A DNA stretch of 64,000 nucleotides from Pectobacterium sp. A5351 (GTDB lineage Bacteria > Pseudomonadota > Gammaproteobacteria > Enterobacterales > Enterobacteriaceae): positions 744,001 to 808,000 of the forward strand of contig NZ_CP116477.1 in NCBI RefSeq assembly GCF_028335745.1, in the 5' to 3' direction. Every line of letters begins with the position of its first letter. The stretch's first letter is position 1. Of this stretch, positions 11,382-32,528 are shown in pieces. Below the pieces are notes generated by a model. The model was not told where the DNA came from and ran no database searches. It saw nothing but the letters and a program-made list of their open reading frames with translations. Made by a program: the position numbers and the translations under genes.

Positions 11382-11406
11382 ACCCACTGAACCCCTTCCT
11401 CTTATT
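11382..11406 (+). promoter_or_regulatory. Late promoter element, copy 1 (Plys-like)
   Basis: First of three exact copies of a 25-bp sequence starting ACCCACTGAACC and ending CCTCTTATT. It ends 51 bp before the first lysis gene. TCTTATT could be the -10. A hairpin, ACCACCTC / GAGGTGGT (11432-11454), follows just before the start codon and encloses the SD GAGGTGG. Position corresponds to Mu Plys. Confidence 0.8.
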
Positions 11407-11457
11407 AGCCTCCCCGCATAATTGAATACTGACCACCTCACATAACGAGGTGGTTTC

Positions 11458-11811
11458 ATGAACATTTTCAACAACAAAAACTTTCGTATCGTACGCGTTA
11501 AACGCTTGCTGGGCTGGCAGTTGACCGCCGTTCTGTTACTGGTGCTCATCGGCCTGGTATCACCGCAGCAACTTCCCGTTGTCATCTATAAAATCTCACT
11601 CATCACGTTAGCTGCCGTACTCGGTTACTGGCTTGATCGTTCGTTGTTCCCCAAAGCGGGACTGGCGCAATATCTTGAACACAAGCCTGACCTGATGAAA
11701 ACCGGTATCTATCCCGTTAAATCAGGTTGTGAGCGGGTCTTTGCCGCCGCACTGATACGCCGCGCAATTATCGTGGCTGCTGTCTGCCTGGCCGTGGCGA
11801 TGGGGCTGTAA
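11458..11811 (+). CDS. Putative holin, lysis cassette
   Basis: 117 residues with hydrophobic segments at about 20-37 (LTAVLLLVLIGLVSP), 42-58 (VVIYKISLITLAAVLGYW) and 95-115. This resembles the putative-holin membrane proteins at the start of lysis cassettes in Mu-like phages. It is the first gene after the Plys-like element. Holin function is inferred from topology and position. Confidence 0.8.
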   Translation: MNIFNNKNFRIVRVKRLLGWQLTAVLLLVLIGLVSPQQLPVVIYKISLITLAAVLGYWLDRSLFPKAGLAQYLEHKPDLMKTGIYPVKSGCERVFAAALIRRAIIVAAVCLAVAMGL

Positions 11812-11813
11812 CT

Positions 11814-12542
11814 ATGGACTGGCCGCAAATTACCTGGATTGTGATTGCCTCGCTGGGACTGGGCGTTGAGCTATCGAAGCATGGACAGTCGCGTACAGGC
11901 ACGCGTAATGCCTGGGTGCAGTTGTTCGCCACGTTGTTCGCTGCATGGCTGCTTTGGTCTGGCGGTTTTTTCGGCCACGCTTACGCCGCACAGCCTCCCG
12001 CTGCCGCTCAACAGTACCGTAGCGATGTGATCCGCAACGCCAGGCTAGATTGGGGTATCAATGCCCCCATTGCAGACTTTGCCGCGCAGTTGCACCAGGA
12101 AAGCGGCTGGAACCCTCGCGCCGTGTCGCCAGTTGGTGCGCAGGGGCTGGCGCAGTTCATGCCAGCCACCGCCGAGTGGTTTAGCCGCATCATGCCTGAG
12201 TTACAGGCTAATCAACCGTTTAATCCCGCCTGGGCTATTCGTGCGCTGACGGGCTATGACCGCTGGCTATGGGAGCGCGTTAGCGCCCGCAACGACTGTG
12301 AACGCATGGCAATGACCCTGTCGTCATACAACGGCGGATTGGGCTGGGTACAGCGCGATCAGCGTCTGGCAACGCAGCGCGGGTTAGATCACCTGCGCTG
12401 GTTTGAGCACGTCGAAACCGTCAATGCGGGTCGCAGTGCCGCCAACTGGCGCGAGAACCGACACTATCCTACCCGCATTTTGCATCAACTTGCCCCGCAC
12501 TATCTGACATGGGGAGGCCGTAGCTGTGCTGAAACTCGTTAG
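11814..12542 (+). CDS. Membrane-anchored lytic transglycosylase (endolysin)
   Basis: 242 residues. The first 60 form two hydrophobic segments (QITWIVIASLGLGVEL and LFATLFAAWLLWSGGFFG) like a small stand-alone phage membrane protein. Residues about 75-200 are an SLT/lysozyme-like fold with catalytic Glu96 in HQESGWNPRAVSPVGAQG, GLAQFMP and LSSYNGG. It would cleave the glycan backbone of peptidoglycan. The N-terminal segment suggests a fusion of a holin-like or signal-arrest-release anchor with the enzyme. Overlaps Rz by 17 bp. Confidence 0.9.
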   Translation: MDWPQITWIVIASLGLGVELSKHGQSRTGTRNAWVQLFATLFAAWLLWSGGFFGHAYAAQPPAAAQQYRSDVIRNARLDWGINAPIADFAAQLHQESGWNPRAVSPVGAQGLAQFMPATAEWFSRIMPELQANQPFNPAWAIRALTGYDRWLWERVSARNDCERMAMTLSSYNGGLGWVQRDQRLATQRGLDHLRWFEHVETVNAGRSAANWRENRHYPTRILHQLAPHYLTWGGRSCAETR

Positions 12543-13134
12543 AGCCTATTGGCCGCACATCCTGATCCTCGCGGCGGTTGCCGCGTTCGGCTACAACATC
12601 GGCCATATCAAGGGCAAGAACGCCACGCAAACCGAGCTGCAAGAGGCCATCACGTACTTATCAGCAGAGAACAAGCTGAAAACCGGGCAAATCACGGCTT
12701 ACGAAAATGATAAACGCCTCGCTGCCGAACAGCATGTCGCGGCTTTGAAAAAAGCGATAGCCGATGCCGATGCGCAGCGCAAACGGGCTGACCAACTCGC
12801 CGCAGAGCTATTGAAAACCAAAGCCGAGCTTAACCAGGCTAAAACCCAGCTAAAAAGGAAAATTCACGATGTTGTTAAAGCAGATGGCGCTACTTTTACC
12901 GGCATTGGCCCTGACAGCCTGCGGCTCTACCGCGCCAGTCTTGGCTACCCCGCCGATGATTTGCCCCAAACCTCCGGCGGAGCTGCTGTATATCCCGCCG
13001 ATGCCACCGGCACCCGTGGCGGACTTTCCCCGGCTGGACTCCTTGACCACAGCGCCGATTACGGCGAATGGTGCCTGATCCTGCGTGAGAACATGACCAA
13101 GCTGAATCAGTTTTACACGGAGGGTAACCGATGA
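12526..13134 (+). CDS. Rz-like i-spanin
   Basis: Inner-membrane spanin subunit, 202 residues from GTG 12526. One N-terminal transmembrane segment (ILILAAVAAFGYNIG) is followed by a long coiled coil (EQHVAALKKAIADADAQRKR...). It carries a nested Rz1 gene in the +1 frame. Spanins disrupt the outer membrane in the last step of lysis. The C-terminal extension after about residue 115 is what encodes Rz1 in the other frame. Confidence 0.88.
   Translation: MLKLVRAYWPHILILAAVAAFGYNIGHIKGKNATQTELQEAITYLSAENKLKTGQITAYENDKRLAAEQHVAALKKAIADADAQRKRADQLAAELLKTKAELNQAKTQLKRKIHDVVKADGATFTGIGPDSLRLYRASLGYPADDLPQTSGGAAVYPADATGTRGGLSPAGLLDHSADYGEWCLILRENMTKLNQFYTEGNR
12869..13078 (+). CDS. Rz1-like o-spanin lipoprotein nested in Rz
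   Basis: 69 residues wholly inside Rz in another frame. A lipoprotein signal (LLLPALALTAC, lipidation at Cys18) is followed by a proline-rich mature part (PPAELLYIPPMPPAPVADFP), the hallmark of Rz1 proteins. Together with Rz it spans the periplasm. SD AAAAAGGAAA is 7-10 bp upstream of ATG. Confidence 0.9.
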   Translation: MLLKQMALLLPALALTACGSTAPVLATPPMICPKPPAELLYIPPMPPAPVADFPRLDSLTTAPITANGA

Positions 13135-13373
13135 GCATGGAGTGGGTGCTGGGGGTGGCGATGACGCTGATATCAACGCTGGGCAGTCTGTTTATGCGTT
13201 CCCTGCAAAAGGACATTACAGACCTGGAGAGTGCGGTGGAGCGTATCAAAAACGATTACCAGCGTCGTGAGGACGCTCGACGCGATCAGGATTCCGTCAT
13301 GGACGCCCTGCGCGACTTGAAAAAAACGATTGAACGTATCGATAACAAACTGGATAGGAAGGCTGATAAATGA
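13131..13373 (+). CDS. DUF2730-type phage protein
   Basis: 80 residues: an N-terminal hydrophobic helix (WVLGVAMTLISTLGSLFM), then a charged coiled coil (KDITDLESAVERIKNDYQRRED). Matches the DUF2730 small membrane proteins between lysis and terminase genes of Mu-like phages. Overlaps Rz by 4 bp. Role unknown. Confidence 0.78.
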   Translation: MSMEWVLGVAMTLISTLGSLFMRSLQKDITDLESAVERIKNDYQRREDARRDQDSVMDALRDLKKTIERIDNKLDRKADK

Positions 13374-13660
13374 AGGCAAGGCAAAAACGACGCGTTCGTC
13401 GCGTTGCGGCGGTATCCAGTGCGGACTCGGTGGCGCTGGCTGGTATTAAGCAACGGCTGGATGCGTTACAGGCTCCAACAGTGCAACTGGGTGGGCTGGA
13501 TGAGATTTCCGGGCAGTTAAATCGCATTGAGCGGCGTATGGACAGTATCGAAGCCGCAGCCGTTCGCCAGGGTGCCATCGCGGGCGGTGTCGCCGGTGCG
13601 GTCACCGGTGGTCTGGTCACAACGGCAATTATGCTCATCAAAGCACGATTGGGGTACTAA
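13370..13660 (+). CDS. Mu-like gp26-type small protein
   Basis: 96 residues, basic N-terminus (KARQKRRVRRVAAV), coiled-coil centre and a glycine-rich hydrophobic segment near the end (GAIAGGVAGAVTGGLVTTAIML). In the position of Mu gp26; function unknown. Overlapping start and stop with both neighbours. Confidence 0.7.
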   Translation: MKARQKRRVRRVAAVSSADSVALAGIKQRLDALQAPTVQLGGLDEISGQLNRIERRMDSIEAAAVRQGAIAGGVAGAVTGGLVTTAIMLIKARLGY

Positions 13661-14160
13661 TGGCGCATCCGCAGGAGGTACGCGACAAGCTGCGCCGCGC
13701 CTACATTTTCGGGCAGATGTCGCTTGAGATTGCGTCTGCGCAATCTGGTGTTGCGTTTGCGACCGCACGGCGCTGGAAGAAAGACGCGCAGGACGCGGGC
13801 GACGACTGGGACAAGCTACGCGCCGCGCATGTGATTGCGGGTGGCGGTCTTGAAGATATCGGACGCGCTGTGCTCACAGGTTTGGTGACACAGTACCAAA
13901 CCACGCTTGAAATGTTGAACGGCGCAGCGGACATCCCGCCGCGTGAGCGTGTCGAGCTGCTTGCAAGCCTGGCGGATGCGTTTAACAAGGCGACATCTGC
14001 CAGCAAGAAAATCCTGCCGGAAACCAGTGAGCTATCGGTGGCGTTGGAGGTGATCCAACTGCTTTCGACCTTCATCCGGGAGCGGCACTCAAAACACCTG
14101 GACGCGTTCGTCAGCATTCTTGATGGATTTGGCGAAGAAATAGGGAAACGTTATGGCTAA
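13660..14160 (+). CDS. DUF1804 protein, probable terminase small subunit (gp27)
   Basis: 166 residues with an N-terminal HTH (LRRAYIFGQMSLEIASAQSGVAFATARRWK) and a helical body, matching DUF1804 (Mu gp27-like). Directly upstream of the large terminase region. Would recognise phage ends and hand DNA to the large subunit for headful packaging. Confidence 0.85.
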   Translation: MAHPQEVRDKLRRAYIFGQMSLEIASAQSGVAFATARRWKKDAQDAGDDWDKLRAAHVIAGGGLEDIGRAVLTGLVTQYQTTLEMLNGAADIPPRERVELLASLADAFNKATSASKKILPETSELSVALEVIQLLSTFIRERHSKHLDAFVSILDGFGEEIGKRYG

Positions 14161-14335
14161 TAACGATTATCAGGCGCTGTTATCCAGCGCCCATAAACAG
14201 GCATTCAATGCAGCTTGCCTGATAAATGTTCAAACGCTGAATCAATGTCGAGCACTGATTCGTCAGTCACTGGATACGGGAGTTTCATTGCATACGGCGA
14301 AACAGCGCATTAACGCGGCATTAAGCGGGGCTTAA
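14153..14335 (+). CDS. Small hypothetical phage protein
   Basis: 60 residues, start overlapping the DUF1804 stop by 8 bp. Helical (YQALLSSAHKQAFNAACLINVQTLNQCRALIRQSLD). Not recognised. Confidence 0.6.
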   Translation: MANNDYQALLSSAHKQAFNAACLINVQTLNQCRALIRQSLDTGVSLHTAKQRINAALSGA

Positions 14336-14533
14336 ATGATGGAAAAATACGAACCAGTGAAAATCCGTGAGCAATTAAGAACACGCATTATGGATGTAAT
14401 TTGTGCGGAGTTTTCAGAAGACGAAATGCACCACCCTGATTTTCACGACGCGTTACTGAGTGCCGTAAATAGCCTTTGCGGCCCGGATGAAGCCGCAAAG
14501 GCCATTCGACGAACGCAGATTAATCTTCAATGA
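14336..14533 (+). CDS. Small hypothetical phage protein
   Basis: 65 acidic residues immediately after the previous stop; two tandem ATG codons, either may be used. No recognised family. Its 3' end overlaps a minus-strand ORF by 14 bp. Confidence 0.55.
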   Translation: MMEKYEPVKIREQLRTRIMDVICAEFSEDEMHHPDFHDALLSAVNSLCGPDEAAKAIRRTQINLQ

Positions 14534-14714
14534 CGCTATCAACAACGATGTTATAGACCGCGTTATAAATGGACTGAAGGTCGTCTGAGCGCAGGTCGGG
14601 AAGGATATGTCGAGGCGCGATCCGACTATTACTCAGGATGCTAGTCGTCAATTCTTTCGCGATTTCGGCTATTTGGATCTTCTGGTCAATAGTGAGTGTT
14701 GTTTTAACTGACAT
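14520..14714 (-). CDS. Small hypothetical protein, opposite strand
   Basis: 64 residues from ATG 14714, with AAAGGG upstream; a longer form starts at 14732. TLTIDQKIQIAEIAKELTTSIL is a plausible amphipathic helix. One of only a few minus-strand genes in the phage and possibly expressed in the lysogen. Coding status uncertain. Confidence 0.45.
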   Translation of the reverse strand: MSVKTTLTIDQKIQIAEIAKELTTSILSNSRIAPRHILPDLRSDDLQSIYNAVYNIVVDSVIED

Positions 14715-14790
14715 ATAAGCCCTTTTTGGCATGGTGAAAATTCGCGTTTAAACCGTATCAGAGGGGATTCATTTTTTACAGGGGTTCAGG

Positions 14791-16443
14791 GTGGCTAAAA
14801 AGCTCACAGCCAAAGACTTTGCCAAAGAGCTGGAAGAACTGGCGGCAACGCTGCGACGGACGATTGAGGCCGAATGCGTCGGCTTTGATCCGTCTGCGGC
14901 AGCAATCGCCGAGCGTCGCGCTCGCGTATTCGACCCCGTGAGTGGCTACGACTATTTTGTTGAGCACTATTTCCCGCACTATGTGCGGCACGCTGACAAA
15001 AGTGAGCTGCATAAATACTTGTTTACGCGCCTGCCTGAGATTGTCGCCAGCCCAAAAAGCGAGAATGACGCGATAGCCGCGCCACGCGGCGAAGCTAAAT
15101 CCACGCTCGTTACCCAGTTGTTTTCACTCTGGAACATTGTGTGCGGCTTCAAGCACTACCTGGTTATCGTGATGGACTCCATCGACCAGGCATACCCAAT
15201 GCTGGAAGCCATCAAAGCCGAACTGGCGTTTAATCCCCGGCTGGAGATGGACTTTCCCGACGTCGCAGGTGGTGGCCGTGTCTGGCAGGCTGGCACGATT
15301 GTCACGCGCAACGACATCAAAGTGCAGGTCGCGGGCAGCGGTAAAAAGCTGCGTGGCCTGCGTCATGGCCCGTACCGCCCTGACTTGGTCGTGCTGGACG
15401 ATATCGAGAACGACGAGCAGGTGCGCAGCCCGGAGCAACGCGACAAGCTGGATAACTGGCTGAAAAAGACCATTCTTCCGCTTGGTGGCGCGGGTGCGAA
15501 GTTCGACGTTATCTATATCGGCACCATCCTGCATTACGATTCCGTATTGTCCCGCACCCTGAAAAACCCGCTGTGGAGGGCGGCACGCTTTAAAGCCATT
15601 ATCCAATGGCCGGTCAATATGTCGCTGTGGGAGGAATGGGAGGAAATCCTCCGCAACAACGACAATAACGGCGAATGGATGGCGAACGCGTTCTACCAGA
15701 ACCATAAACTCGAAATGGACGAGGGCGCGATTGTCTCATGGTCAGCTCGTCCGATTCTGGCGTTGATGTTGATCCGCGCCCGTGACGGCCACAGTACCTT
15801 TGATTCTGAGTACCAGAATGACCCTGTGAGCGGTGAAGATGCGCCATTCGCTCACTGCATCATGTTCTGGGTAAACCGTCTGAATGAGTGGATCTTCTTC
15901 GGTGCCTGCGACCCCTCCCTCGGTAAAGCCGGTGCCAGTCGAGACCCCTCTGCATTGCTTGTTGGTGGGTTTAACCGTCATACCGGCATTCTTGATGTGG
16001 TCGAAGCGGCTATCCGTAAGCGCCTGCCCGATAAAATCATTTCTGATGTGATTGAGTTACAGCGCATTTACGGCTGCCTGGTCTGGGCGATTGAGTCCGT
16101 CCAGTTCCAGGAATTCTTACGCACTGAACTTGTAAAACGCAGTGCGGCAGCGGGTATCCCTGTGCCTGCACGCGCGGTCACTCCGCACAGTGACAAGCTG
16201 CTGCGCATTGAGTCACTGCAGCCACACATGGCAAACGGCCTGATACGGTTGCATCCCAGCCAGACAACGCTTATTGACCAGTTGCGACACTTCCCGATGG
16301 CCGACCATGACGACGGCCCGGATACCTTACACATGCTGTGGGCGCTGGCTGTGTCTGGATTTGGCTCGTTTTCTTTTACTCCCGCTCCCCGTCGTAATTC
16401 TGATGACCGGGGCAGTAGATTTGGCTCTTCAGGAGGCTGGTAG
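14791..16443 (+). CDS. Terminase large subunit (gp28-like)
   Basis: ATPase-nuclease motor that packages DNA into the prohead, 550 residues from GTG 14791 (SD AGGGGTT). ATPase: Walker A-like APRGEAKST (97-105) and Walker B DLVVLDDIE (198-206). C-terminal RNase H-like nuclease begins at GACDPSLGKAGASRDPSAL. Mu-family phages cut host DNA about 50 bp beyond the left end and fill heads. Confidence 0.95.
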   Translation: MAKKLTAKDFAKELEELAATLRRTIEAECVGFDPSAAAIAERRARVFDPVSGYDYFVEHYFPHYVRHADKSELHKYLFTRLPEIVASPKSENDAIAAPRGEAKSTLVTQLFSLWNIVCGFKHYLVIVMDSIDQAYPMLEAIKAELAFNPRLEMDFPDVAGGGRVWQAGTIVTRNDIKVQVAGSGKKLRGLRHGPYRPDLVVLDDIENDEQVRSPEQRDKLDNWLKKTILPLGGAGAKFDVIYIGTILHYDSVLSRTLKNPLWRAARFKAIIQWPVNMSLWEEWEEILRNNDNNGEWMANAFYQNHKLEMDEGAIVSWSARPILALMLIRARDGHSTFDSEYQNDPVSGEDAPFAHCIMFWVNRLNEWIFFGACDPSLGKAGASRDPSALLVGGFNRHTGILDVVEAAIRKRLPDKIISDVIELQRIYGCLVWAIESVQFQEFLRTELVKRSAAAGIPVPARAVTPHSDKLLRIESLQPHMANGLIRLHPSQTTLIDQLRHFPMADHDDGPDTLHMLWALAVSGFGSFSFTPAPRRNSDDRGSRFGSSGGW

Positions 16444-16446
16444 TTT

Positions 16447-18012
16447 ATGGCTCAGATTGTTGATCAATTCGGTCGTCCGTTGAACCGCGATGTACTGAAA
16501 TCCCCGCAGACGGCGCGGGTTGCGCAGATAGCGCGGCATTTCCCAGAGCATCCTTCGCGCGGTCTAACCATTCGCCGCCTGCCGCGTATCCTCGAAGCCG
16601 CCGAGCGTGGCGATTTAGCCGCACAGGCTGACCTGTTTGAAGACATGGTCGAGAAAGACGGTCACATCTTTTCGGAAATGGCAAAGCGCAAGAATGCCCT
16701 GCTGGGGCTGGACTGGAGTATTGAACCGCCGCGCAATGCGACAGCCGAAGAGAAAAGCCTCGCGGCGATGGTTGCCGAATGGATGGATGATATTCCCGAT
16801 TTTGAAGACATTGTTCTCAATGCTGCGGAAGCCATCGGACACGGATTTTCAGCGCAAGAAATTGAATGGGAATTTGAAGAGAACATCTGGTTACCCGCTA
16901 AAGCCACACTGCGCCCGCATCGCTGGTTCTGCACGAACCCGGAGATTGACGACATCGTGCGCCTGTCTGACGGCAGCATGAATGGCTCGGAGCTATGGCC
17001 GTTCGGCTGGCTGGTTCACACTCATAACGCAAAATCGGGCTATGTTGCCCAGTCCGGGTTGTACCGCGTGCTGGTCTGGCCGTATCTGTTTAAAAATTAC
17101 AGTGTGCGTGATTTTGCTGAATTCCTGGAGATTTACGGTTTACCGGCGCGAGTCGGGACATATATGGAAGGGTCGTCTGACGAGCAAAAAGATGCATTGC
17201 TGCACGCTCTGGTGACGCTCGGCCATAACGCCGCCGGCATTATCCCGATGGGCAGTGAAATCAAATTTGAAGCCGCTGCCGAAGGACAATCCGATCCGTT
17301 TATGGCGATGATCGACTGGTGCGAAAGGACGGTATCAAAAGCCGTGCTTGGCGGAACGCTGACGAGTCAAGCGGACGGCAAAACCGCAACGAACGCGCTC
17401 GGTAATGTTCATAACGACGTGCGTAACGATATCCTGGTCGCTGATGCGAAGCAGCTACACGGTTTTTTCTCGCACATGATCCAGATGCTGCTGTCGATTA
17501 ACGGCTATCAGGTAAGCCGCCGCCGGTTGCCGAAGTTCGTTTTTGATACCAGCGAGTTGGAAGATATCGGCACGTTTTCTACCGGCGTGTCTACGTTGGT
17601 TCAGGCGGGGATGAAAACTATCCCAGTTTCGTGGGTACACAAAAAAGTCGGTATTCCCGTCCCGCAGAATAACGAGCCGGTGCTTGAAGCTGCCCCGCGC
17701 CCGTCGCTTACGGGACTATCGACTTCACCCTATCGCGGATTTGCGGCGTTAAGCACGGTGCCTGGCGAAATCAGCGACCCGGCGCAATCGGCACTCGATA
17801 GCGCCCGCTCAACGCCGGAAGCGATTAACGACGCGATGCAGGCGCTGATTGCGCCACTGGTCACGGCGTTACAGCAAGGCCAGACGCCGGACGATGCGCT
17901 CGATATCATCGCGGGCAGCTATCCCTTGCTTGATGACTCACAGCTCCAGCAACTGCTGAAACAGGCGCTGTTTGTCGCGGATGTGTGGGGGCGACTGAAT
18001 GCCGACACCTAA
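16447..18012 (+). CDS. Portal protein, DUF935 (Mu gp29-like)
   Basis: 521 residues of the DUF935 portal family (DRLSDG-type RPHRWFCTNPEIDD, LPARVGTY, GTLTSQADGKTATNALGNVH). Forms the dodecameric ring at the capsid vertex. Starts 3 bp after the terminase stop; its end overlaps gp30 by 14 bp. Confidence 0.94.
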   Translation: MAQIVDQFGRPLNRDVLKSPQTARVAQIARHFPEHPSRGLTIRRLPRILEAAERGDLAAQADLFEDMVEKDGHIFSEMAKRKNALLGLDWSIEPPRNATAEEKSLAAMVAEWMDDIPDFEDIVLNAAEAIGHGFSAQEIEWEFEENIWLPAKATLRPHRWFCTNPEIDDIVRLSDGSMNGSELWPFGWLVHTHNAKSGYVAQSGLYRVLVWPYLFKNYSVRDFAEFLEIYGLPARVGTYMEGSSDEQKDALLHALVTLGHNAAGIIPMGSEIKFEAAAEGQSDPFMAMIDWCERTVSKAVLGGTLTSQADGKTATNALGNVHNDVRNDILVADAKQLHGFFSHMIQMLLSINGYQVSRRRLPKFVFDTSELEDIGTFSTGVSTLVQAGMKTIPVSWVHKKVGIPVPQNNEPVLEAAPRPSLTGLSTSPYRGFAALSTVPGEISDPAQSALDSARSTPEAINDAMQALIAPLVTALQQGQTPDDALDIIAGSYPLLDDSQLQQLLKQALFVADVWGRLNADT

Positions 18013-19339
18013 CCCCGGCGACGTCAATTTGGCATATGCCATTGGTCTGAAACCCGAAGAAGCTATCCGCTATTTTGAGTCAAAAGGCTATGCGATTGGC
18101 TTTAATTGGCATGACGTTGAAGCCCGCGCACATGCCACAGCGTTCACCGTTGCCGGTGTTCTCAAGCAAGACGTGCTAGCCGATATCCGGGGCGGATTGG
18201 ATGCGGCGCTGAAGAACGGCGAAACGCTGGAACAGTTCCGGCGTCGATTAACGCCCGTTCTTGAGCAAAAAGGCTGGCTGGGTACGGGTCTGAAAGCCGA
18301 CGAAGATGGTGTACTTGAAGGGAAAAAGCTCACCCCGCGCCGCCTGAAAACCATTTTTGAAACCAATATGCAGGCAGCGTATAACGCGGGTCGCTACGAA
18401 GAGCAGCTCGCTAACGCGGAGTTTCGCCCCTACTTACAGCGAGTGGGGATAATGGACACCCACATCCGCCCAAGCCATGCCGCATTACATGGCTACACGG
18501 CACGGATTGATGATCCGGTGTGGCAATTTATGTATCCGCCGGACGGTTATCACTGCCGCTGCCGCGTTCGCGCATTATCTCAGGCCGACGTGGATAAACG
18601 TAGTGTGACTGTCCAGCACAGCGAGATTGTCGACGTTGAGCAAGCCTGGGGGCCGAATGATTCGCGCCTGGTCAAGGCGATTAAATGGGATGGTGCGCTG
18701 TATACGCCTGACGCCGGTTTCGGCCACAATCCCGGTCAGGGATATCTTGCCGCGCTCGGTCAGCGACTGCTGGAGCGTTCCGCTGTTGCTGACCCACAGC
18801 TTGCGGCACTGGCCGTTCGTCAAACAATGGGTAATGAAACGCTGTTAAAGGCCGTTTCAACGGACGTTAACGCGTTCGTTAATAACACACTGCTGAACAA
18901 GCGGGCACGCGGCCAGCTCCGCCACGTCGGGGCATTACCGCCGCAAGTGGTTGATCGCCTGGCCGAGAAAGGCGTCGCGGTGGAATCATCCGTTATCACG
19001 CTGACCGATGAGAACCTGTTGCACGCCATCCGGGACAGCAAGGACGCGCAGCTTCCAGAGTCGCTGTGGCAGCGCCTACCAGAGTTCATACTCAATCCTA
19101 AAGCCATTCTCTATAACACGCAGAAAGCCGACGCGGCATTGACCTACGTTTTAGATTTACCGGACACCTCCGGCAAGCTGGTCGTGTTTATCGATCGGGA
19201 GCTAAAAGCCCGGCCACCAGAGGGTGGAAAGAAAGAGAAGATAAAAACCAATCTGATACGGACGGGTAAAATCCTGGCGAATGATGAGTCGCTGAGAAAC
19301 AAAGGGATTAACGAAGTATTGTGGGGGAGTCTTGATTAA
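17999..19339 (+). CDS. Minor head protein gp30/F-like with C-terminal PBECR-type nuclease domain
   Basis: 446 residues. The N-terminal part is the Mu F / SPP1 gp7 head morphogenesis domain (ETNMQAAYNAGRYEEQLAN, DTHIRPSHAALHGYTA, PPDGYHCRCRVRALS with the conserved His/Cys cluster). The C-terminal 150 residues (ILNPKAILYNTQKADAALTY, KEKIKTNLIRTGKILANDES) resemble the PBECR toxin-like nuclease domains fused to phage head proteins. Delivery with phage DNA is possible but inferred. Confidence 0.88.
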   Translation: MPTPNPGDVNLAYAIGLKPEEAIRYFESKGYAIGFNWHDVEARAHATAFTVAGVLKQDVLADIRGGLDAALKNGETLEQFRRRLTPVLEQKGWLGTGLKADEDGVLEGKKLTPRRLKTIFETNMQAAYNAGRYEEQLANAEFRPYLQRVGIMDTHIRPSHAALHGYTARIDDPVWQFMYPPDGYHCRCRVRALSQADVDKRSVTVQHSEIVDVEQAWGPNDSRLVKAIKWDGALYTPDAGFGHNPGQGYLAALGQRLLERSAVADPQLAALAVRQTMGNETLLKAVSTDVNAFVNNTLLNKRARGQLRHVGALPPQVVDRLAEKGVAVESSVITLTDENLLHAIRDSKDAQLPESLWQRLPEFILNPKAILYNTQKADAALTYVLDLPDTSGKLVVFIDRELKARPPEGGKKEKIKTNLIRTGKILANDESLRNKGINEVLWGSLD

Positions 19340-19440: not shown

Positions 19441-19455
19441 ATTATAGAGTAATTT

Positions 19456-19998: not shown

Positions 19999-20021
19999 CT
20001 ACATTACCTATGGGAACTATT

Positions 20022-20399
20022 ATGAGTCGATTAAGATCTGTTGTTGGGGATAATTTTCATCAAAAAGAAGCAACGCTGATTTACTATGTAACATTCGATT
20101 TGACCAACACTTATGACGACAAAAGCGTTTATAAGAAAATCGAGAAAGCTATCGAAGCTGAAGGCTATACCAGAGACACAAATATCGAAGAAGATGCGCT
20201 GCCGTATAACTTCTACGCAGGGCAAAAGAAAATCACATTCGATGCTCGTGAAACAACTCTGACCAAAGCAATCACCAAAGAGAAAGAGGCGTTCAAAAAC
20301 GTGATTATCAGCATTATTGATTCGATTGCGCCTGGTAAACGTGAGCGCCTATTCCTGTCTGTTTCAGACGCCGCGCACACCAAGTTTTATGTCGGTTAA
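20022..20399 (+). CDS. Accessory protein of unknown function between G and I
   Basis: 125 residues from ATG 20022 (GGGA upstream; ATG 20010 also in frame). No counterpart at this position in Mu. The N-terminus (IYYVTFDLTNTYDDKSVYKKIEKAIEAEGY) has a strand-then-helix pattern reminiscent of VapD/Cas2-type ferredoxin folds, but this is only a resemblance. Lysine-rich and AT-richer than its neighbours, consistent with a late-acquired moron. Confidence 0.7.
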   Translation: MSRLRSVVGDNFHQKEATLIYYVTFDLTNTYDDKSVYKKIEKAIEAEGYTRDTNIEEDALPYNFYAGQKKITFDARETTLTKAITKEKEAFKNVIISIIDSIAPGKRERLFLSVSDAAHTKFYVG

Positions 20400-20577: not shown

Positions 20578-20602
20578 ACCCACTGAACCCCTTCCTCTTA
20601 TT
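20578..20602 (+). promoter_or_regulatory. Late promoter element, copy 2 (PI-like)
   Basis: Second exact copy of the 25-bp late element, ending 30 bp before the I gene start. Followed by hairpin TGCTGCC-ATTCT-GGCGGCA (20615-20633), whose 3' arm abuts the ATG. Position corresponds to Mu PI. Confidence 0.8.
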
Positions 20603-20632
20603 CGTTGATTTGCGTGCTGCCATTCTGGCGGC

Positions 20633-21778
20633 ATGAAAAAGAAATTGCTCGTCGCTGCGCTGGCCGCAGAAATCAATAAAGCCTCCCTCGGCGTCATCCA
20701 GTTGTTTCCTGCTGGTGAGTTCCGGGCGCGTGATGGCCGTCCCACCGAATGTCCTGCCTGGATTATGACGGCCGAGGTCGCGCAGGCATTGATTGCCGCC
20801 GCTGATGCGCAACAAACCCCTTACGTCATCGACTACGAACACCAGACCTTGCGTGCCGCCAAGAACGGCAAGCCTGCACCGGCTTCCGGCTGGTTCAAAA
20901 CGCTGGAATGGCGCGACGGTGACGGCCTGTTTGCTGTCGATGTGATGTGGACAGACAGCGCCGCCGCGATGATTGCCGACGGCTCCTATCGATTTATTTC
21001 CCCGGTTTTTTCTTACGACAAATCAGGTCGCGTCTTGCAGCTCCTGCACGCGGCGCTCACGAACACCCCCGCTGTTGACGGTATGGACGAGGTCATGCTC
21101 GCTGCGGCTTCGCTTCTCGCCGTCACATCATCAACCCAAGAGGACACTATGGACGAACTACTAGAACGTCTGCGCTGGATGCTGAATCTACCGATTGCAG
21201 CCACCGCAGAAGACATCACCGCCGAGCTAAACAAGCTCATTGATCAACTGACGGCTGCGACCGCAGGAACGGCGGCAGCATCATTTAATACGCTGTCAGC
21301 TAATCCATTCAATCTGATTGAAAAACTGACAGCAGATGCCGCAAGTGTTGCGGCACTGACCGCGCAGGTCGCTACTCCCGACCCGGCTAAGTGGGTTTCC
21401 GTCGATGTGATGCAGCAATCCGTCACTGAAGCGCTGGCAACCGCGAATAACAACACGGCCGCACTGGCGCAGCAGCAATGCGCGGAGTTGATCACCGTCG
21501 CGCTGTCTGATGGCCGCCTGTTACCGGCACAAAAAACGTGGGCTGAATCCCTGGCGAAATCCTCCCCGGACAGCCTGAAAACGTTCCTGGGCAACGCGCC
21601 AAAAATCGCGGCGCTAACCACCACGCAAACCGGGGGTCAACCGCCCGCAGGCGTAAAACCCAGAAACGAAACCGCAATCGGCAATGACGACGATGTCGTA
21701 GACGTCGCTATCTGCAACATGATGGGCGTTGATCCGGCTGAAGTCGCCAAGTTTGTAAAAGGAGAAGGCAATGAGTGA
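20633..21778 (+). CDS. Prohead protease I (Mu gp32-like)
   Basis: 381 residues. The N-terminal protease part has IQLFPAGEFRARDGRP, YVIDYEHQTLRAAKNGKPAPA and SYRFISPVFSYD, typical of Mu I proteases that mature the capsid. The C-terminal half is Ala/Gln-rich scaffold, also predicted to be made alone from an internal start. No clear SD precedes ATG 20633; the leader hairpin reaches the start codon. Confidence 0.93.
   Translation: MKKKLLVAALAAEINKASLGVIQLFPAGEFRARDGRPTECPAWIMTAEVAQALIAAADAQQTPYVIDYEHQTLRAAKNGKPAPASGWFKTLEWRDGDGLFAVDVMWTDSAAAMIADGSYRFISPVFSYDKSGRVLQLLHAALTNTPAVDGMDEVMLAAASLLAVTSSTQEDTMDELLERLRWMLNLPIAATAEDITAELNKLIDQLTAATAGTAAASFNTLSANPFNLIEKLTADAASVAALTAQVATPDPAKWVSVDVMQQSVTEALATANNNTAALAQQQCAELITVALSDGRLLPAQKTWAESLAKSSPDSLKTFLGNAPKIAALTTTQTGGQPPAGVKPRNETAIGNDDDVVDVAICNMMGVDPAEVAKFVKGEGNE
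21149..21778 (+). CDS. Scaffold protein Z, internal in-frame start in I
   Basis: An in-frame ATG at 21149 is preceded by a strong SD (AAGAGGACACT), giving a 209-residue product equal to the C-terminal part of I. Mu uses the same arrangement to make scaffold Z. Composition is Ala, Gln and Thr rich and helical. Confidence 0.7.
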   Translation: MDELLERLRWMLNLPIAATAEDITAELNKLIDQLTAATAGTAAASFNTLSANPFNLIEKLTADAASVAALTAQVATPDPAKWVSVDVMQQSVTEALATANNNTAALAQQQCAELITVALSDGRLLPAQKTWAESLAKSSPDSLKTFLGNAPKIAALTTTQTGGQPPAGVKPRNETAIGNDDDVVDVAICNMMGVDPAEVAKFVKGEGNE

Positions 21779-24604: not shown

Positions 24605-24794
24605 GGCGGCGCAGGGTGTTCAGGTGCCGCGCGAAGATAACGGCCGTCGCTACATCACCAGCGACACCGTGGTCGAGGTAGAACGCACAGCGTACTACCT
24701 GCGGCAGTTAAACGTCGGTGATCTGGTTGTCGTTACTGACAGTGCCGCTGTGGCAAAAAAAGGTAAAGAGGAGGTGAGCCGTGGCGAGTCCTAA
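24588..24794 (+). CDS. gp38-like DUF2635 protein
   Basis: 68 residues from ATG 24588 (VKAAQGVQVPREDNGRRYIT, YYLRQLNVGDLVVV), the DUF2635 pattern. Small structural or assembly factor; overlaps both neighbours. Confidence 0.85.
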   Translation: MKIKVKAAQGVQVPREDNGRRYITSDTVVEVERTAYYLRQLNVGDLVVVTDSAAVAKKGKEEVSRGES

Positions 24795-26202: not shown

Positions 26203-26216
26203 TAAGGATCTGAATC

Positions 26217-26980: not shown

Positions 26981-27129
26981 AAGCGATGAGCCGTGCAGAG
27001 CTGGACGGCTACATCAATGCAATGGCCCGGTTGAACGGCAGAAAAGCGCCGTCAGCCGGGGATGCCAAAACCTCCCGCAAAGTGAAATCACTACGCCAAA
27101 AGCGTCCTATAAAGAAACGGAGAACGTAA
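26594..27129 (+). CDS. Tail assembly chaperone, -1 frameshift long form
   Basis: If ribosomes slip -1 at A_AAA_AAG (26890-26896), translation continues through 27129 and adds about 77 residues including TVILALGRYGITKQQIEAMS and RAELDGYINAMARL, a conserved-looking domain that has no good start of its own. This parallels lambda G/GT and is common in phage tail chaperones. Coordinates are the span of the joined product. Confidence 0.8.
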
Positions 27130-27132
27130 GCA

Positions 27133-29307
27133 ATGGCTCGCAGTTTGCAACTTGCATTAACGATATTAGCCAGAGACAACGGTTCAAAAGTGCTGCGTAA
27201 GGCACTGGAAGACGCTGTCGCAAAAACGAAAGCCGCAGAAAAAGCCGGTGACGACCTGGCTAAGTCGCAGCAGCAGAGCAGCTCGCAAGGCATCCGGGCG
27301 TCGCGTGCATTGAGCGAGGAATTTAAGCGGGCTAATAGCGCTCGCTCTACGCTCGGCATTCGTTCAGAGCGTGAAATTCAGCGTGAAATCCAGCAGACCA
27401 TTGCGGCATACAGCCGCCTAACTCGCATGGGTGTGATGTCAGCGAGTGAGCAGTCACGCGCATTCAGTGCAATGACTGACCGTGTCAGTCGTTTGCGTGG
27501 TGAGTTAAACGCTACAGCTCAGTCTGTTAGCCGCATGGACAAGTTACGAGCGGTTGGGTCTGGCGCTATGGCCGTGGCGGGCGGGGTTGCTGCTGCAACA
27601 ATGGTAATCAAAGACCCTGTTCAGAGGCAGATGGCGTTTGAGAGCAAAAATGCAGAAATTGCAAATACGGCGTACAACGCGCTTTCTCCTGCCGAACGTA
27701 TTAAGAAAATCCCAGTAATTAACGACACGATAAGGGAAGCCGTTCGCTATGGAGGTGGGACGCCGGAGGCTGCACAAGCAACGTTAGGTGCTCTTTTTGC
27801 TGGCGGACTAGATGAAGAGGCAGCAATAAAGATGCTGCCCGACATTACGAAATATGCAACTGCATCGGGCGCTAGCCCAGAGCATCTAGCGCAGATCGGG
27901 ATCGGAGCTATTAAAAACTTCGGCATTAAAGCTGAGGATCTGCCTGCCGTTTACGATAAGGCGATCCGTTCTGGTGAGAACGGGAAATATGAGCTGGCAG
28001 ATATGGCTGGCTCGTTATCGTTGACAATGACTAAAGCAAATTCGGTCGGTATGTCTGGATTGAACGATCTGGATAAACTACTAGCAATGCTCCAGGCCAA
28101 CGCTGAAACCGCTGGGGATAATAGTGCTGCATCAACAAACGTTAACAACCTGCTTGATAAATACACCAGTGCTGATACGCAAAATGCCATGAAGGGCTAT
28201 AAATTTCGCATGAAAGACGGCCGTACCGTGGGGTATACCGATTACATGGCAGAAAAGCGGCTGCAAGGTGTTAGTGCTTCTGATGCGTTTACCGGCGCAG
28301 TGGATGGTATCGTTTCATCAGACAAGCGTGTGCAGAAGTTACGTGCGGCAGCGGAGAAATATAAAGGCACGGATAAAGAGGCGGATATTCTCGCATCGTT
28401 GGATTTAGTGGTTTCGTCGATCACATCGAAGATTGTTGCTGATCAGCAGGCGGGAATGGCCTTAAAAACTAGCATCCTGAAAAAGGACTTTATTACAGAA
28501 CAGATCGCGGGAACAAAAAACGCTACGGGCGCTGGTGCTGATTCATTTGCTGTTGTGTCATCAACAGCAGGATATAAATCACAGCAATTTGAATCTGAAA
28601 AACTGTTCGCGGAACAGGACTCAGTTAAGCCTCTGGCAGACTGGTACGGTGATTTAGTTTCAAATCTAACTGATTATTCGAAAGAGTATCCCGGATTAAC
28701 AACAGCACTCTCTGGCGCAACGACAGGCATTAAAGCACTGGGCGCGGGAGCAGTTACGGCTGGGGGTGTTCTGGCCGCGTGGAAACTCATATCGGGTAGC
28801 GGTGGCGTTAATCCCCCTCCAGTTCCCGGAGGCCCAACAACCACACCGAATGTTCCAGGCACGCGTCTACCGTCATGGTTAAGTCGGCTGGGAGGTGTTG
28901 CGCGTGTCGCTGGGCGCGTCGCTGCACCGTTAGCGCTCTATCAAGCAGCCGAAGATGCGCCGCTCGTCCAGGTCGAGCGCGGTGACACAGCAGCACGAAC
29001 CCGCCTCAAAGCGAATGAATACGCCAGTGACCTTGAGCGTATTCAAGATAGCCGCCGCGCTGTTCCTGGCTTTCTGGATGTTGTCGATGAGGTTAAAACC
29101 TGGTGGGCAAGACCCACAACCATCGGCGCAGACGTGAACCCAGCCACAATGGGCGTGCCGTCTTACTTGCTGCCGCAGCAACCGCAAAGCAACCAACCGA
29201 TTCAGATAAATACAAAGGTCGAGCTGGATAGTCGTGTCATTGCCGAGGCCGTTAACGAAGCCAACAGCCAGCAAGCCACGCGTGGCTCGAACGGAGCATA
29301 TCAATAA
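27133..29307 (+). CDS. Tail tape measure protein
   Basis: 724 residues. N-terminal coiled coil (KALEDAVAKTKAAEKAGDDL), TP901-type core (IANTAYNALSPAERIKKIPV, GGTPEAAQATLGALFAGG) and hydrophobic stretches at about 150 and 540 (ALGAGAVTAGGVLAAW). Sets tail length and sits after the chaperone pair as usual. Confidence 0.93.
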   Translation: MARSLQLALTILARDNGSKVLRKALEDAVAKTKAAEKAGDDLAKSQQQSSSQGIRASRALSEEFKRANSARSTLGIRSEREIQREIQQTIAAYSRLTRMGVMSASEQSRAFSAMTDRVSRLRGELNATAQSVSRMDKLRAVGSGAMAVAGGVAAATMVIKDPVQRQMAFESKNAEIANTAYNALSPAERIKKIPVINDTIREAVRYGGGTPEAAQATLGALFAGGLDEEAAIKMLPDITKYATASGASPEHLAQIGIGAIKNFGIKAEDLPAVYDKAIRSGENGKYELADMAGSLSLTMTKANSVGMSGLNDLDKLLAMLQANAETAGDNSAASTNVNNLLDKYTSADTQNAMKGYKFRMKDGRTVGYTDYMAEKRLQGVSASDAFTGAVDGIVSSDKRVQKLRAAAEKYKGTDKEADILASLDLVVSSITSKIVADQQAGMALKTSILKKDFITEQIAGTKNATGAGADSFAVVSSTAGYKSQQFESEKLFAEQDSVKPLADWYGDLVSNLTDYSKEYPGLTTALSGATTGIKALGAGAVTAGGVLAAWKLISGSGGVNPPPVPGGPTTTPNVPGTRLPSWLSRLGGVARVAGRVAAPLALYQAAEDAPLVQVERGDTAARTRLKANEYASDLERIQDSRRAVPGFLDVVDEVKTWWARPTTIGADVNPATMGVPSYLLPQQPQSNQPIQINTKVELDSRVIAEAVNEANSQQATRGSNGAYQ

Positions 29308-30686
29308 TGGCCTGGGCAGATTCATTACAGGATGCGTCATTTCGTGGCGTGAAATTCGATGTGTTCAACGCGCGGGACAGTGCGCAGCGCGACATGGCAC
29401 AGCATGAATACCCGAATCTGGACGGCGCAGACATTCAGGATTTAGGGCTAAAGCCGCACAGCTCGCAGATTCAAGCCGTGGTGTGGGGTGATGATTACGA
29501 AACCCGCCTACAGTCTTTGCTGGATGCACTGCGCAAGCCAGGGGCGGCGGAACTGATACACCCCGTCTTTGGTGCGATGCCGAACATGTTAGCCGTAGTA
29601 TTCCAGGTCAATCACGATGCGGATAATGTCAATTACTGCACCATCGATATGCAGTTTGTGCAGTCAAAAACGGGCAATCCGTTCTTTGTTAAAGACTATC
29701 CGTTATCAAAAGCCGATGAGATTTTTAATCAGACGCAGTCGCTGATCGACAGTGCAAGCACGCTGCTTGACGATGTCACTAAGCCGCTCAGAACGGCTAA
29801 AACCATGATGAATAAAGTTCGTGGTCTGGCGACCGGCGCATTAAACATGGTGACTATATTCCGCAGCGATATCAGCGGATTTATCAGCAGCACAACGGAC
29901 TTTATTAATTTCCCTGGCGCGTTTTTCGGCGACCTGCGCTCTGCGCTGTCACTCAAGACGGGCGCGTCAAAGAGTTCATTGCATTCTGCTTACGTGGGCG
30001 GCGGGACGTCTACTGCTGTTGCATCGGTATCAGGCACAGAGCAACAGGCTATCGCCACCTCGAACTATGCCGCATCACCCACAGTCATTATGGCTGACTG
30101 GACAAGTACGCAGGCCGCGCTGCTGTCCGTTCAGTCAATGCCGGCAGGATTAGTCTCAGGCAGTATCGATGCGCCGGTTGATATGCCTGCGCAACTGGTT
30201 GAGCGCGATATTGTTGAGTTAACCGCGATTGTCGCGGTGGCCGTGGCGATGGAGGCAGCGGAAGAAGCCGGTGCGGTGCTCAGTGACCCTGCATTAACCG
30301 CCGTGTTAACCCCGCTCGACATTGAGAAAATCACCAATGAAACCCGGACGATGATACAGGACGCGATTGATATCAATCGTGATACCTATGCACCGGCGAT
30401 GAATGAAATCAGTAGCAGCGCACAGCCGACCGGTCTTTCGTATCAGCCCGTTATCGACAAATTGGCCGCTATCGCGCTGACGGTTCAGGTGCTGGCAGAA
30501 GCCGTCATCAACGAAAAGCCGCAGCTAATGACGCGTACTGTTACTGCGCCAGGTAATCTGCATCTGGTTGCGCATCGCTGGTATAGCGACTATTCCCGCG
30601 CCGCTGAGTTGCAACGATTGAATCCGCAGTTGCGCGATGTGAACAACATTAATGTGGGGGATGTGCTGAATGCCTACGCAAAATAA
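29307..30686 (+). CDS. Tail/DNA circularisation protein N (Mu gp43-like)
   Basis: 459 residues. The N-terminal DNA_circ_N domain starts WADSLQDASFRGVKFDVF; the C-terminus (HLVAHRWYSDYSRAAELQRLNP, NINVGDVLNAYA) looks LysM-like. In Mu, N is a tail protein associated with circularisation of infecting DNA. Overlaps P by 17 bp. Confidence 0.9.
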   Translation: MAWADSLQDASFRGVKFDVFNARDSAQRDMAQHEYPNLDGADIQDLGLKPHSSQIQAVVWGDDYETRLQSLLDALRKPGAAELIHPVFGAMPNMLAVVFQVNHDADNVNYCTIDMQFVQSKTGNPFFVKDYPLSKADEIFNQTQSLIDSASTLLDDVTKPLRTAKTMMNKVRGLATGALNMVTIFRSDISGFISSTTDFINFPGAFFGDLRSALSLKTGASKSSLHSAYVGGGTSTAVASVSGTEQQAIATSNYAASPTVIMADWTSTQAALLSVQSMPAGLVSGSIDAPVDMPAQLVERDIVELTAIVAVAVAMEAAEEAGAVLSDPALTAVLTPLDIEKITNETRTMIQDAIDINRDTYAPAMNEISSSAQPTGLSYQPVIDKLAAIALTVQVLAEAVINEKPQLMTRTVTAPGNLHLVAHRWYSDYSRAAELQRLNPQLRDVNNINVGDVLNAYAK

Positions 30687-31863
30687 CCCCGCGACCGATA
30701 ATGCCGCCGTGTCCGTCATTATCAATGGAAAAGCGCACACGGACTGGTCACGCTACCAGATTGACAGTGATTTTCTGATACCGGCTGACGCGTGGAGTGT
30801 CAGCCTGGGATTGCCCGACGGTACGTTCCCTGCTGATGTGGTGCGTGGTGCGCCGGTGATGGTGAAAGTTGGTAGCGATACGGTGATGACTGGTCGTATT
30901 GACAGCGTGCAGCGCTCGGTTGCCCGCAGTGGCGTTACGCTGTCGCTGTCTGGCCGGGACGGTGCCGCTATCCTCGTTGACTGTGCCGCGCCAATACTGA
31001 CCGCACGGCAGGTCGGGCTGGAGGATGTTGTCGCGCAGATCGTCCGCCCGCTCGGCATCACAAACATCCGCATTGAGGCTGAGAGCGCCATCCGCAGCGA
31101 CAAAATCAGTGCAGAGCCTGGCGAACGGGCGTGGGACATGCTGTTACGGGCGTGCGCCGGTCGCGGTCTGTGGCCGTGGTTCGCGCCGGATGGAACGTTA
31201 GTCATCGGCGGTCCGGATTACACAAAGCAGCCTGTCGCGTCGCTTATCATGCGCATGGACGGCAAAGGCAATAACGTGCTGTCGCTGTCTGATGCCAGTT
31301 CAATAGATAAATCGTTTTCCGAGCTGACGGTACTAGCGCAAAGTCATGCGCACTCATCAAGTAAAAAGGATTTGGCGATTATCGACGTCGATGATGACAG
31401 TAGCAGCGACAGCGATATTGAGCTGAGTACAGGCACGGCAGAAACCGGACAGCACGGCATGAGAGCAGTGGTCAAAGACCCGACGGTCAATTACTACCGA
31501 CCGCAGGTGCTTGTTGTCGGTGATGCAGACAATCAGGAGCAAATCAACTACCGCGCCCGCAAAGCGCTGGCCGATGCGAAGCTGAACGGCTACAGCCTGA
31601 CGGCGACAGTCTACGGCCACAGAACATCGGACGGTGTGCTGTGGGAGCCAGGGCAACGCATTCACGTAATCAGCGAGTACCACGGTATTGATGCAGTGTA
31701 TTTCCTGATGGGGCGTGAATTTAGCGGTGGTCGTCCGGGCGGCACAACCACCACGCTCCGCCTGAAAGAGGATGGCGTCTGGATACCGGATGCGTATCCG
31801 AGGAGGAAAAAGCAGCGTAAACGCAAAGGTAAAGGAGAAACAGCAATTGTCGATGTGGCCTGA
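30670..31863 (+). CDS. Baseplate hub protein P (Mu gp44-like)
   Basis: 397 residues (WSVSLGLPDGTFPADVVRG, LSGRDGAAILVDCAAP, RAWDMLLRACAGRGLWPWF), a gpD/gp27-type hub protein. The C-terminus is very basic (RRKKQRKRKGKG). Overlaps the spike gene. Confidence 0.92.
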   Translation: MPTQNNPATDNAAVSVIINGKAHTDWSRYQIDSDFLIPADAWSVSLGLPDGTFPADVVRGAPVMVKVGSDTVMTGRIDSVQRSVARSGVTLSLSGRDGAAILVDCAAPILTARQVGLEDVVAQIVRPLGITNIRIEAESAIRSDKISAEPGERAWDMLLRACAGRGLWPWFAPDGTLVIGGPDYTKQPVASLIMRMDGKGNNVLSLSDASSIDKSFSELTVLAQSHAHSSSKKDLAIIDVDDDSSSDSDIELSTGTAETGQHGMRAVVKDPTVNYYRPQVLVVGDADNQEQINYRARKALADAKLNGYSLTATVYGHRTSDGVLWEPGQRIHVISEYHGIDAVYFLMGREFSGGRPGGTTTTLRLKEDGVWIPDAYPRRKKQRKRKGKGETAIVDVA

Positions 31864-32503
31864 TATTGAAAGACGCATTAACGGGGCGTTAAATCGCATT
31901 CGTCTGGCGTTCAGAACCCGTTTAACGCGGGTTAATAGTGCTGGCCCGTTGCAAACGTTCCAGGCTAAAGGGCTTTTCGGTGAATCATTGCAGGACAGCG
32001 AACTGTTCCAGCACTACGGATTTACGTCAAATCCGTTACCTGGTGCGGCTGCTATCGTGCTACCGCTAGGCGGGAGAACGTCACACAGCATTGTGATAGC
32101 CACCGAGCACGCAACCTATCGCCTTCAGTCGCTGAAGCCTGGTGAGGTCGCACTCTATACCGATGAAGGCGCAAAAATTGTCCTCAAGCGCGGGCGCGTG
32201 ATAGAAACGGACTGCGACGAGTTCCGCGTCAACTGCAAACAATTTGTTGTCAATGCGGCCGAAAAAGCGGATTTTAATACCCCGATGGTTACGGCCAGCG
32301 AACAGGTAACGGCGCAAAGTCAAATCACCGGCAACGGTGGTATGGCGATCAAGGGTGGCACTGGCGCATCGTTTGAAGGTAACGTTACGCAAACAAAAGG
32401 CGACTATCAGACCAGCGGGAATGTCACGGCAGGCAATATAGCGCTCAACGGCCACAGGCATCCTGGCGATTCCGGCGGTACGACTGGCCCCGCAATTCCA
32501 TAA
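31847..32503 (+). CDS. Baseplate spike protein gp45-like
   Basis: 218 residues from TTG 31847, placed by AGGAG 9 bases upstream; ATG 31853 is the alternative. OB-fold N-terminus (FQHYGFTSNPLPGAAAIVLP) and beta-helical C-terminus ending NGHRHPGD; the HxH motif is known in Mu gp45 and P2 V to bind iron at the spike tip. Membrane-piercing role. Ends at the third late-promoter copy. Confidence 0.92.
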   Translation: MSMWPDIERRINGALNRIRLAFRTRLTRVNSAGPLQTFQAKGLFGESLQDSELFQHYGFTSNPLPGAAAIVLPLGGRTSHSIVIATEHATYRLQSLKPGEVALYTDEGAKIVLKRGRVIETDCDEFRVNCKQFVVNAAEKADFNTPMVTASEQVTAQSQITGNGGMAIKGGTGASFEGNVTQTKGDYQTSGNVTAGNIALNGHRHPGDSGGTTGPAIP

Positions 32504-32528
32504 ACCCACTGAACCCCTTCCTCTTATT
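32504..32528 (+). promoter_or_regulatory. Late promoter element, copy 3 (PP-like)
   Basis: Third exact copy of the 25-bp late element, directly after the spike gene stop and 30 bp before the gp46 start. Followed by hairpin ATGCTGCC-ATTCT-GGCTGCAT (32540-32560) overlapping the ATG, at the same spacing as copy 2. In Mu the corresponding PP lies slightly further upstream. Confidence 0.8.

Follow-up and report, generated by a model that had tools for sequence, protein, structure and literature searches.

Predicted Mor-activated late promoters, leaderless transcripts and start-site inverted repeats in a Mu-like prophage of Pectobacterium

What does an exactly repeated 25-bp sequence do at three gene boundaries of a dormant virus? 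The window analysed here is a 64,000-nt stretch of the Pectobacterium sp. A5351 chromosome (NZ_CP116477.1, positions 744,001 to 808,000) that holds a Mu-like prophage, and ACCCACTGAACCCCTTCCTCTTATT is present in it at 11382-11406, 20578-20602 and 32504-32528, on the plus strand at all three places. An initial annotation made from the sequence had described three exact copies in non-coding DNA, each followed by a block of genes, and this is borne out. All three copies are intergenic; a stop codon immediately precedes copies 1 and 3, and copy 2 sits 178 nt past a stop codon. The downstream genes are a holin and an SLT transglycosylase (the lysis operon, lys), the Mu-like I protease, and GP46 (a Pfam assignment). 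No further match with up to three mismatches is found elsewhere in the window, and 100 dinucleotide shuffles yield 0 matches. At the same tolerance the prophage's own genome (4.41 Mb) has no copy beyond these three. The copies are almost certainly parts of late promoters.

Relatives were also searched for the motif, as the annotation had suggested. With the window included, orthologous sites were compared for I (n = 6 sequences), gp46 (n = 6) and lys (n = 5). A 23-bp core is 98-100% identical at these sites, whereas identity over the 45 nt upstream, compared without gaps, is 44-61%; the repeat has stayed at its boundaries in relatives with diverged flanks. When the three sites of the window are compared with each other the core is identical and the upstream DNA is 34% identical. 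In two loci, L005 and L013, the sequence directly before P-lys, a gene end, is wholly different and the motif is retained. Among 98 genomes searched, the own genome included, five match the 23-bp version with up to three mismatches. Three of the other four carry a close homolog of the Mor-family protein of the window (G002, 94%; G003, 94%; G025, 67% identical), and the fourth, G014, a 170-contig assembly, has a single match with 2 mismatches and no Mor. An exact 20-bp piece of the 25-mer is found in three IMG/VR contigs, in 7 stretches. In the G003 prophage (G003:C1:672458-685043; loci L012, L016 and L019) just 4.2 kb separates the I promoter from the gp46 promoter, compared with 11.9 kb in the window, and this prophage has therefore probably lost late genes between them.

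The core of the 25-mer is a dyad, GAA-CCCC-TTC (GAA-N4-TTC), and a -10-like hexamer lies 31 nt beyond the dyad centre at each of the three sites (AATACT at 11425, CATTCT at 20621 and CATTCT at 32547). The predicted +1 was set by counting seven from the last base of the hexamer. Relative to this position the predicted dyad centre is at -43.5 at the window sites, and the 25-mer spans -55 to -31, i.e., the activator site and the -35 region. The -10 begins 18 nt past the end of the 25-mer, and the proposal that the 25-mer is both activator-binding site and promoter is supported for its activator half and not for the -10, which lies outside. In a consensus scan a two-hexamer sigma-70 promoter was not found at the sites, the -10 being present and the -35 lacking. 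A consensus scan for terminators upstream of the sites gave no separation from shuffles, and none is claimed for the window; no Rfam families are found in 11000-33000. The lys hexamer has A at position 2 and T at position 6 in 29 of 29 distinct lys leaders. The predicted +1 of lys gives a 21-nt leader that carries the Shine-Dalgarno (SD) sequence GAGGTGG. The predicted +1 of I and that of gp46 each coincide with the A of the ATG.

The candidate activator is the Mor/C-family protein encoded at 10490, for which the annotation of its PHROG family is late transcriptional activator. Relatives were taken from IMG/VR alignment scans, as the best 80 of 119 loci for Mor, the best 80 of 318 for gp46 and the best 80 of at least 591 for I, and a motif profile was built from 50 gp46 and I sites, the lys sites being unused in its building. 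Among the best 80 Mor loci, all 46 in which Mor is at least 57% identical to that of the window have the motif within 2 kb after Mor, before lys. The I region could be counted in the 63 of 80 loci that reach far enough; here the motif is present in 36 of 36 loci at or above 57% identity and in 2 of 27 below it, and before lys it is found in 4 of the 34 loci below it. The same loci read backwards (1.41 Mb) have zero motif matches. The lys and I boxes agree at 15.1 of 17 positions within one phage and at 13.6 of 17 across phages (19 distinct pairs, p = 5e-5), which fits one trans-acting factor per phage. A geometry like that of the Mu promoter Pm, a motif that follows Mor identity and the within-phage match of boxes all favour the three-site late regulon that had been proposed and the choice of this protein as its activator, and Mor is very likely the activator of the three promoters. 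The description of it as a single Mor-family protein is correct for the prophage but not for the host, which has two more such genes about 1.1 and 1.7 Mb away (C2:1817114 and C2:2488311); the I-protease gene of the window, by comparison, is the sole one in the own genome.

Several other features lie near the activator gene or match its motif. The product of 9445-9879, a PHROG 536 transcriptional regulator, is encoded in the early operon and is a possible second regulator. Between Mor and P-lys, at 10935-11381, is an open reading frame (ORF) of 148 aa (PHROG 5882, unknown function). This could be an exchangeable gene slot, because the sequence there is wholly different in L005 and L013. A weaker match to the motif profile is at 36941-36965 on the minus strand (score 16.9; best of five shuffled windows 12.8), and this match at 36965 falls in a 79-aa ORF without family hits at the right end.

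The layout was then compared among other phages. The 80 gp46 loci comprise 61 distinct sequences, of which 60 remain after removal of those with N or a short upstream region and 35 at less than 85% mutual identity; the 80 I loci reduce to 64 and then to 48. Symmetry centres were located in the upstream regions anchored on the ATG, the motif not being used. For gp46 these are at -9 (z 6.5) and -43.5 (z 3.2), and for I at -10.5, -9 and -44.5 (z 3.0-3.6); a shift by one position is common among the I promoters. Further peaks of the mean symmetry profiles, at -3.5 and downstream, involve the invariant start codon. The pattern xAxxxT is present 6-8 nt before the start codon in 35 of 35 gp46 and 40 of 48 I sequences (about 18% expected with equal bases). 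By eye, the half-sites vary among phage groups (CTGAA...TTCAG, GACGAACCCCGTC, GGAA-N4-TTCC, TTTTCGCCCCTTCCAAAA), and the layout is constant. Distant lys promoters (15 distinct ones), selected on hexamer and hairpin without use of the dyad, have their best mean symmetry centre at -43.5 (z 4.7); the hexamer appears out of register by eye in L026, L086, L087 and L088, which were kept in the average.

SD sequences were assessed by the best pairing with the 16S end, with a threshold of -4 kcal/mol or lower. The threshold is reached by 1 of 35 gp46 and 3 of 48 I sequences, by 35 of 43 other prophage genes (with start codons as given in the ORF list), by 45 of 46 genes of Klebsiella phage ST405-OXA48phi1.1, and at 20% of 500 random positions. 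Since the geometry puts +1 at the A of the ATG and an SD is absent, the I and gp46 mRNAs are likely to be leaderless. The predicted leaderless transcripts and the start-site hairpins had both been overlooked in the annotation. By eye, two named Pasteurellaceae-type phages also show a leaderless layout at gp46.

The same rule can be read in annotated phage genomes. In DMS3 (L024, NC_008717) it makes I begin at 19037, the annotated start, 19163, being 42 codons further on, and the N-terminus from 19037 (MEKNRLLVAIAAC) resembles that of the I protein of the window. A second DMS3 site is at the lysis-operon promoter, with 10261 as the first position of an unannotated 115-aa ORF. These observations suggest that the annotated I start is 42 codons too late and that the 115-aa ORF is missing from the record. 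For phage Fc02 the annotation already starts I where the rule puts it, at 20152, and upstream of the lysis genes there is a related box at 11702. RNA-seq of Fc02 gives three late clusters on that strand, the first of which opens with lysis genes (PMC9936078).

At all three sites of the window the predicted +1 is within an inverted repeat, and the start codon or the ribosome site is part of the same repeat. At gp46 the -10 is enclosed by a repeat of the CATGCC...GGCATG type, whose last bases belong to the start codon. Stems score 7 or more in 23 of 35 gp46 loci (2.6% of shuffles) and in 15 of 48 I loci (2.1% of shuffles). For gp46, covariation was assessed in an alignment of 22 rows (20 distinct), i.e., the window and 21 of 26 loci, five with another stem span being omitted. 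In it 93.5% of the cells pair, a percentage that is favoured by the choice of rows for having the stem, with 22 two-sided changes; none of 500 shuffles is as good, and the covariation is abolished when the partner is slid. The inverted repeats are strongly supported by sequence and covariation for gp46 and lys, and moderately for I. When stems were set by Watson-Crick pairs only, with omission of loci with fewer than five such pairs (9 of 35 gp46, 25 of 48 I), the remaining cells of both genes comprise 36 G-U, 7 A-C and 35 other non-pairs, 29 of these last in I. Because G-U cells outnumber A-C cells 36 to 7, the comparison points to a stem that acts as RNA.

The lys hairpin starts directly after the -10, with the predicted +1 in its 5′ arm, and its 3′ arm either contains the SD or stops 0-6 nt short of the ATG. 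The stem scores 7 or more in 27 of 29 distinct leaders (0.9% of shuffles), with 15 distinct arm pairs; one of the 29 rows (L030) uses another ATG. Where Mor is less than 57% identical, a comparable lys structure is found in 27 of 34 loci, in addition to three named phages, compared with 5 of 40 shuffled regions. In 22 of these 27 loci, many of them near-duplicates, a run of 4-6 T precedes the ATG, similar to an intrinsic terminator. Examples are L025, L026, L085, L091 and L104, among others, where the lys hairpin of Pasteurellaceae-type phages, right after Mor, is followed by 4-6 T. Such hairpins may end read-through transcription, with the promoter start inside the 5′ arm.

In the window, the minimum-energy folds of read-through RNA pair the lys SD and the AUGs of I and gp46. 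The AUG is predicted to be hidden in the gp46 read-through RNA in 25 of 35 loci, compared with 9 of 35 when shuffled, which supports masking, and the native lys RNA is more open in 25 of 29 leaders, which is modest support for it. Masking of the start sites by the hairpins in read-through RNA is slightly more likely than not.

We infer Mor binding, start points, leaderless translation and masking as follows. A dimer of the Mor/C-family protein (10490-10924) would bind the GAA-N4-TTC dyad at -43.5, in place of a -35 element, and would recruit host sigma-70 RNA polymerase to the weak -10 hexamer 31 nt on. At I and gp46 the RNA would begin at the A of the ATG, and the first cistron of the head and baseplate operons would be translated leaderless; at lys it would begin 21 nt before the ATG, with the SD included. 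Read-through RNA from upstream would carry both arms, fold and hide the start site. RNA made from the promoter would lack all or most of the 5′ arm, and its start site would be exposed. Late proteins, the holin above all, would then be made only once Mor fires the proper promoter. Taken as a whole, with Mor-activated late promoters, leaderless I and gp46 and hairpin masking, this reading is probable.

It should be noted that a number of observations weigh against parts of it. The link between Mor and motif is confounded by the kinship of whole phages, which is still in the counts, and the profile was partly trained on I sites, so that only the lys count is independent. The I sites are the weakest: an in-register hexamer is absent from 8 of 48 and a strong stem from 33 of 48, and the AUG of read-through RNA is predicted to be hidden no more often than in shuffles (20 of 48 versus 18 of 48). 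For lys, the predicted accessibility in the window shifts just from 0.34 to 0.44, 4 of 29 leaders show no gain in accessibility, and the SD threshold is reached by just 14 of 29 starts. In Pasteurellaceae-type phages I is preceded by an SD-like GAGGTG or AGGA, and leaders are found in Mu itself.

Other explanations of the same features were considered. The inverted repeat could act in the DNA, either as a palindromic operator for a second regulator or as a cruciform that aids melting of the -10. The hairpin promoters of phage N4 are a precedent for action of this type, the repeats of gp46 and I are centred near the -10, and many stems are perfect palindromes. However the lys repeat starts after the -10, what is common to the three sites is the relation to the translation start, and the ratio of G-U to A-C cells is RNA-like, the 35 other non-pairs being neutral; a role in the DNA is therefore considered unlikely. 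A start further upstream would place the hairpin in a normal leader, to be opened by a phage protein, much as Com acts for Mu mom. TCTTAT, with which the 25-mer ends, looks like a -10 and is invariant among the three copies. Relatives have, for instance, ACTGATT, CCTGAAT or CCGATAA at this place, unlike the hexamer 31 nt from the dyad centre, which is kept, and TCTTAT was rejected as the -10 for this reason. An upstream start would also leave I and gp46 with leaders that have no SD and a buried AUG, and we regard it as very unlikely.

It could also be that the regulon is real and that its activator is another early protein, such as the product of 9445-9879. This product is a predicted regulator of the same early operon, but the geometry agrees with that of the Mu Mor site and the presence of the motif goes with Mor identity, and there is little probability left for an activator of this kind. 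The identity of 25 bp at three places would be expected of recent duplications or of a mobile repeat without function. This is already contradicted by the identity kept at the same boundaries in several diverged prophages, and the geometry recurs in other phages with different consensus sequences, so that the probability of such an origin is close to nil. The preferred reading remains that of Mor-activated promoters with start sites inside the repeats.

Comparison with known systems shows where this arrangement is similar and where it departs. The Mor site of Mu Pm is centred at -43.5 in the available portion of PMC4390567, and from that portion Pm has in common with the present sites a dyad with a G/C-rich centre at -43.5, a -10 without a -35, and a Mor-family gene just before. 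Unlike in Mu, one Mor-family protein here seems to act directly on three late promoters in a prophage without the second activator C, whereas Pm drives the middle operon with C; the half-sites differ, and the start sites here are in hairpins. In the late promoters of Mu (Plys, PI, PP and Pmom with C), several late operons are similarly under one activator of the Mor/C family (excerpt of PMC4461284), and the lys and I operons are in the same order, but the C sites are of another sequence, and I and lys of Mu have leaders. The annotation had placed Plys, PI and PP of Mu at matching positions. This is correct for lys and I but not for the third copy, which is between gp45 and gp46, and not at PP, which in Mu is inside gene N about 0.4 kb before P. 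By eye, the Mu record (L028) has at 17983-18058 a hairpin CTGCTCA...TGAGCAG that ends just before the SD and ATG, and the PI promoter of Mu itself seems to start inside it.

Masking of start sites is found in phage T4, in which folding of the long transcripts of e, soc, 49 and I-TevI covers the SD or AUG, the late-promoter case being spelled out for e in the section of PMC3014915 consulted. As predicted here, late transcripts of the e type start inside the structure and lose its 5′ part (same section of PMC3014915). The start codon or SD is likewise predicted to lie in the read-through helix for gp46 and lys; for I this does not exceed shuffles. However T4 uses its own late promoters and leadered mRNAs, whereas here the promoter is of the Mor type, with the -10 in the loop, and at two of three sites the predicted mRNA has no leader. 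Lambda cI is named among leaderless mRNAs in the passage seen of PMC9031893. The 5′-terminal AUG, predicted here, and the absence of an SD are shared with mRNAs of this type, but here they are predicted for the first cistrons of late structural operons. According to a passing remark in a paper on phage AR9, phage transcripts are often leaderless (PMC5312081, in part), and the accessible text on Mu-like phages of P. aeruginosa gives six promoters predicted by general software and does not mention the motif (PMC4378225). Each of the three elements, a promoter with Mor at -43.5, masking as in T4 and leaderless mRNA, is already known. In the literature searched, which was largely without subscription journals, neither leaderless late mRNAs nor start-codon hairpins were described in Mu-like phages, nor was the combination of Mor promoter, masking and leaderless mRNA in Mu-like late operons.

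Table 1. Coordinates of the activator gene, the three predicted late promoters and their first genes in the window
Feature	Position	Strand	Remarks
Mor/C-family late activator, last-but-one gene before P-lys	10490..10924	+	PF08765, 42.6 bits (cut-off 24.9); PHROG 836
Copy 1, P-lys activator region (-55 to -31)	11382..11406	+	dyad GAACCCCTTC at 11389-11398, centre -43.5
P-lys -10-like hexamer AATACT	11425..11430	+	31 nt from dyad centre; predicted +1 11437
P-lys inverted repeat GACCACCTC-acataac-GAGGTGGTT	11431..11455	+	predicted +1 in 5′ arm, SD GAGGTGG in 3′ arm
Holin gene, first in lysis operon	11458..11811	+	PF13272
Copy 2, P-I activator region	20578..20602	+	dyad at 20585-20594
P-I inverted repeat CGTGCTGCCA-TTC-TGGCGGCATG around -10	20613..20635	+	3′ arm ends with I start codon; same stem in L189
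P-I -10-like hexamer CATTCT	20621..20626	+	predicted +1 20633 = A of ATG
Gene I, protease/scaffold, predicted leaderless, no SD	20633..21778	+	PF10123; SD energy -1.5
Copy 3, P-gp46 activator region	32504..32528	+	dyad at 32511-32520
P-gp46 inverted repeat CATGCTGCCA-TTC-TGGCTGCATG, 9/10 pairs, around -10	32539..32561	+	3′ arm ends with gp46 start codon
P-gp46 -10-like hexamer CATTCT	32547..32552	+	predicted +1 32559 = A of ATG
Gene gp46, baseplate, predicted leaderless, no SD	32559..32909	+	PF07409; SD energy -1.5

The arrangement may extend to many Mu-like phages, DMS3 included, with late promoters fired by Mor inside start-codon hairpins, leaderless head and baseplate operons, and late proteins barred from read-through RNA, some lys hairpins also terminating; the chances for and against this generalization appear evenly divided. 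The dyad, the distance of 31 nt and the -10 would together make the sites of a class of late activators recognizable, and late operons and their start codons could then be read from sequence. If the reading is true, the start point of the promoter would itself be the switch that removes the hairpin, and Mu-like phages would have a safety catch on late genes that is similar to that of T4 lysozyme but built on another type of promoter. A further prediction is that phages of gamma-proteobacteria translate structural operons from leaderless mRNAs. Production of late structural proteins would in that case hinge on leaderless initiation, which could be controlled through 70S ribosomes and initiation factors in the lytic burst.

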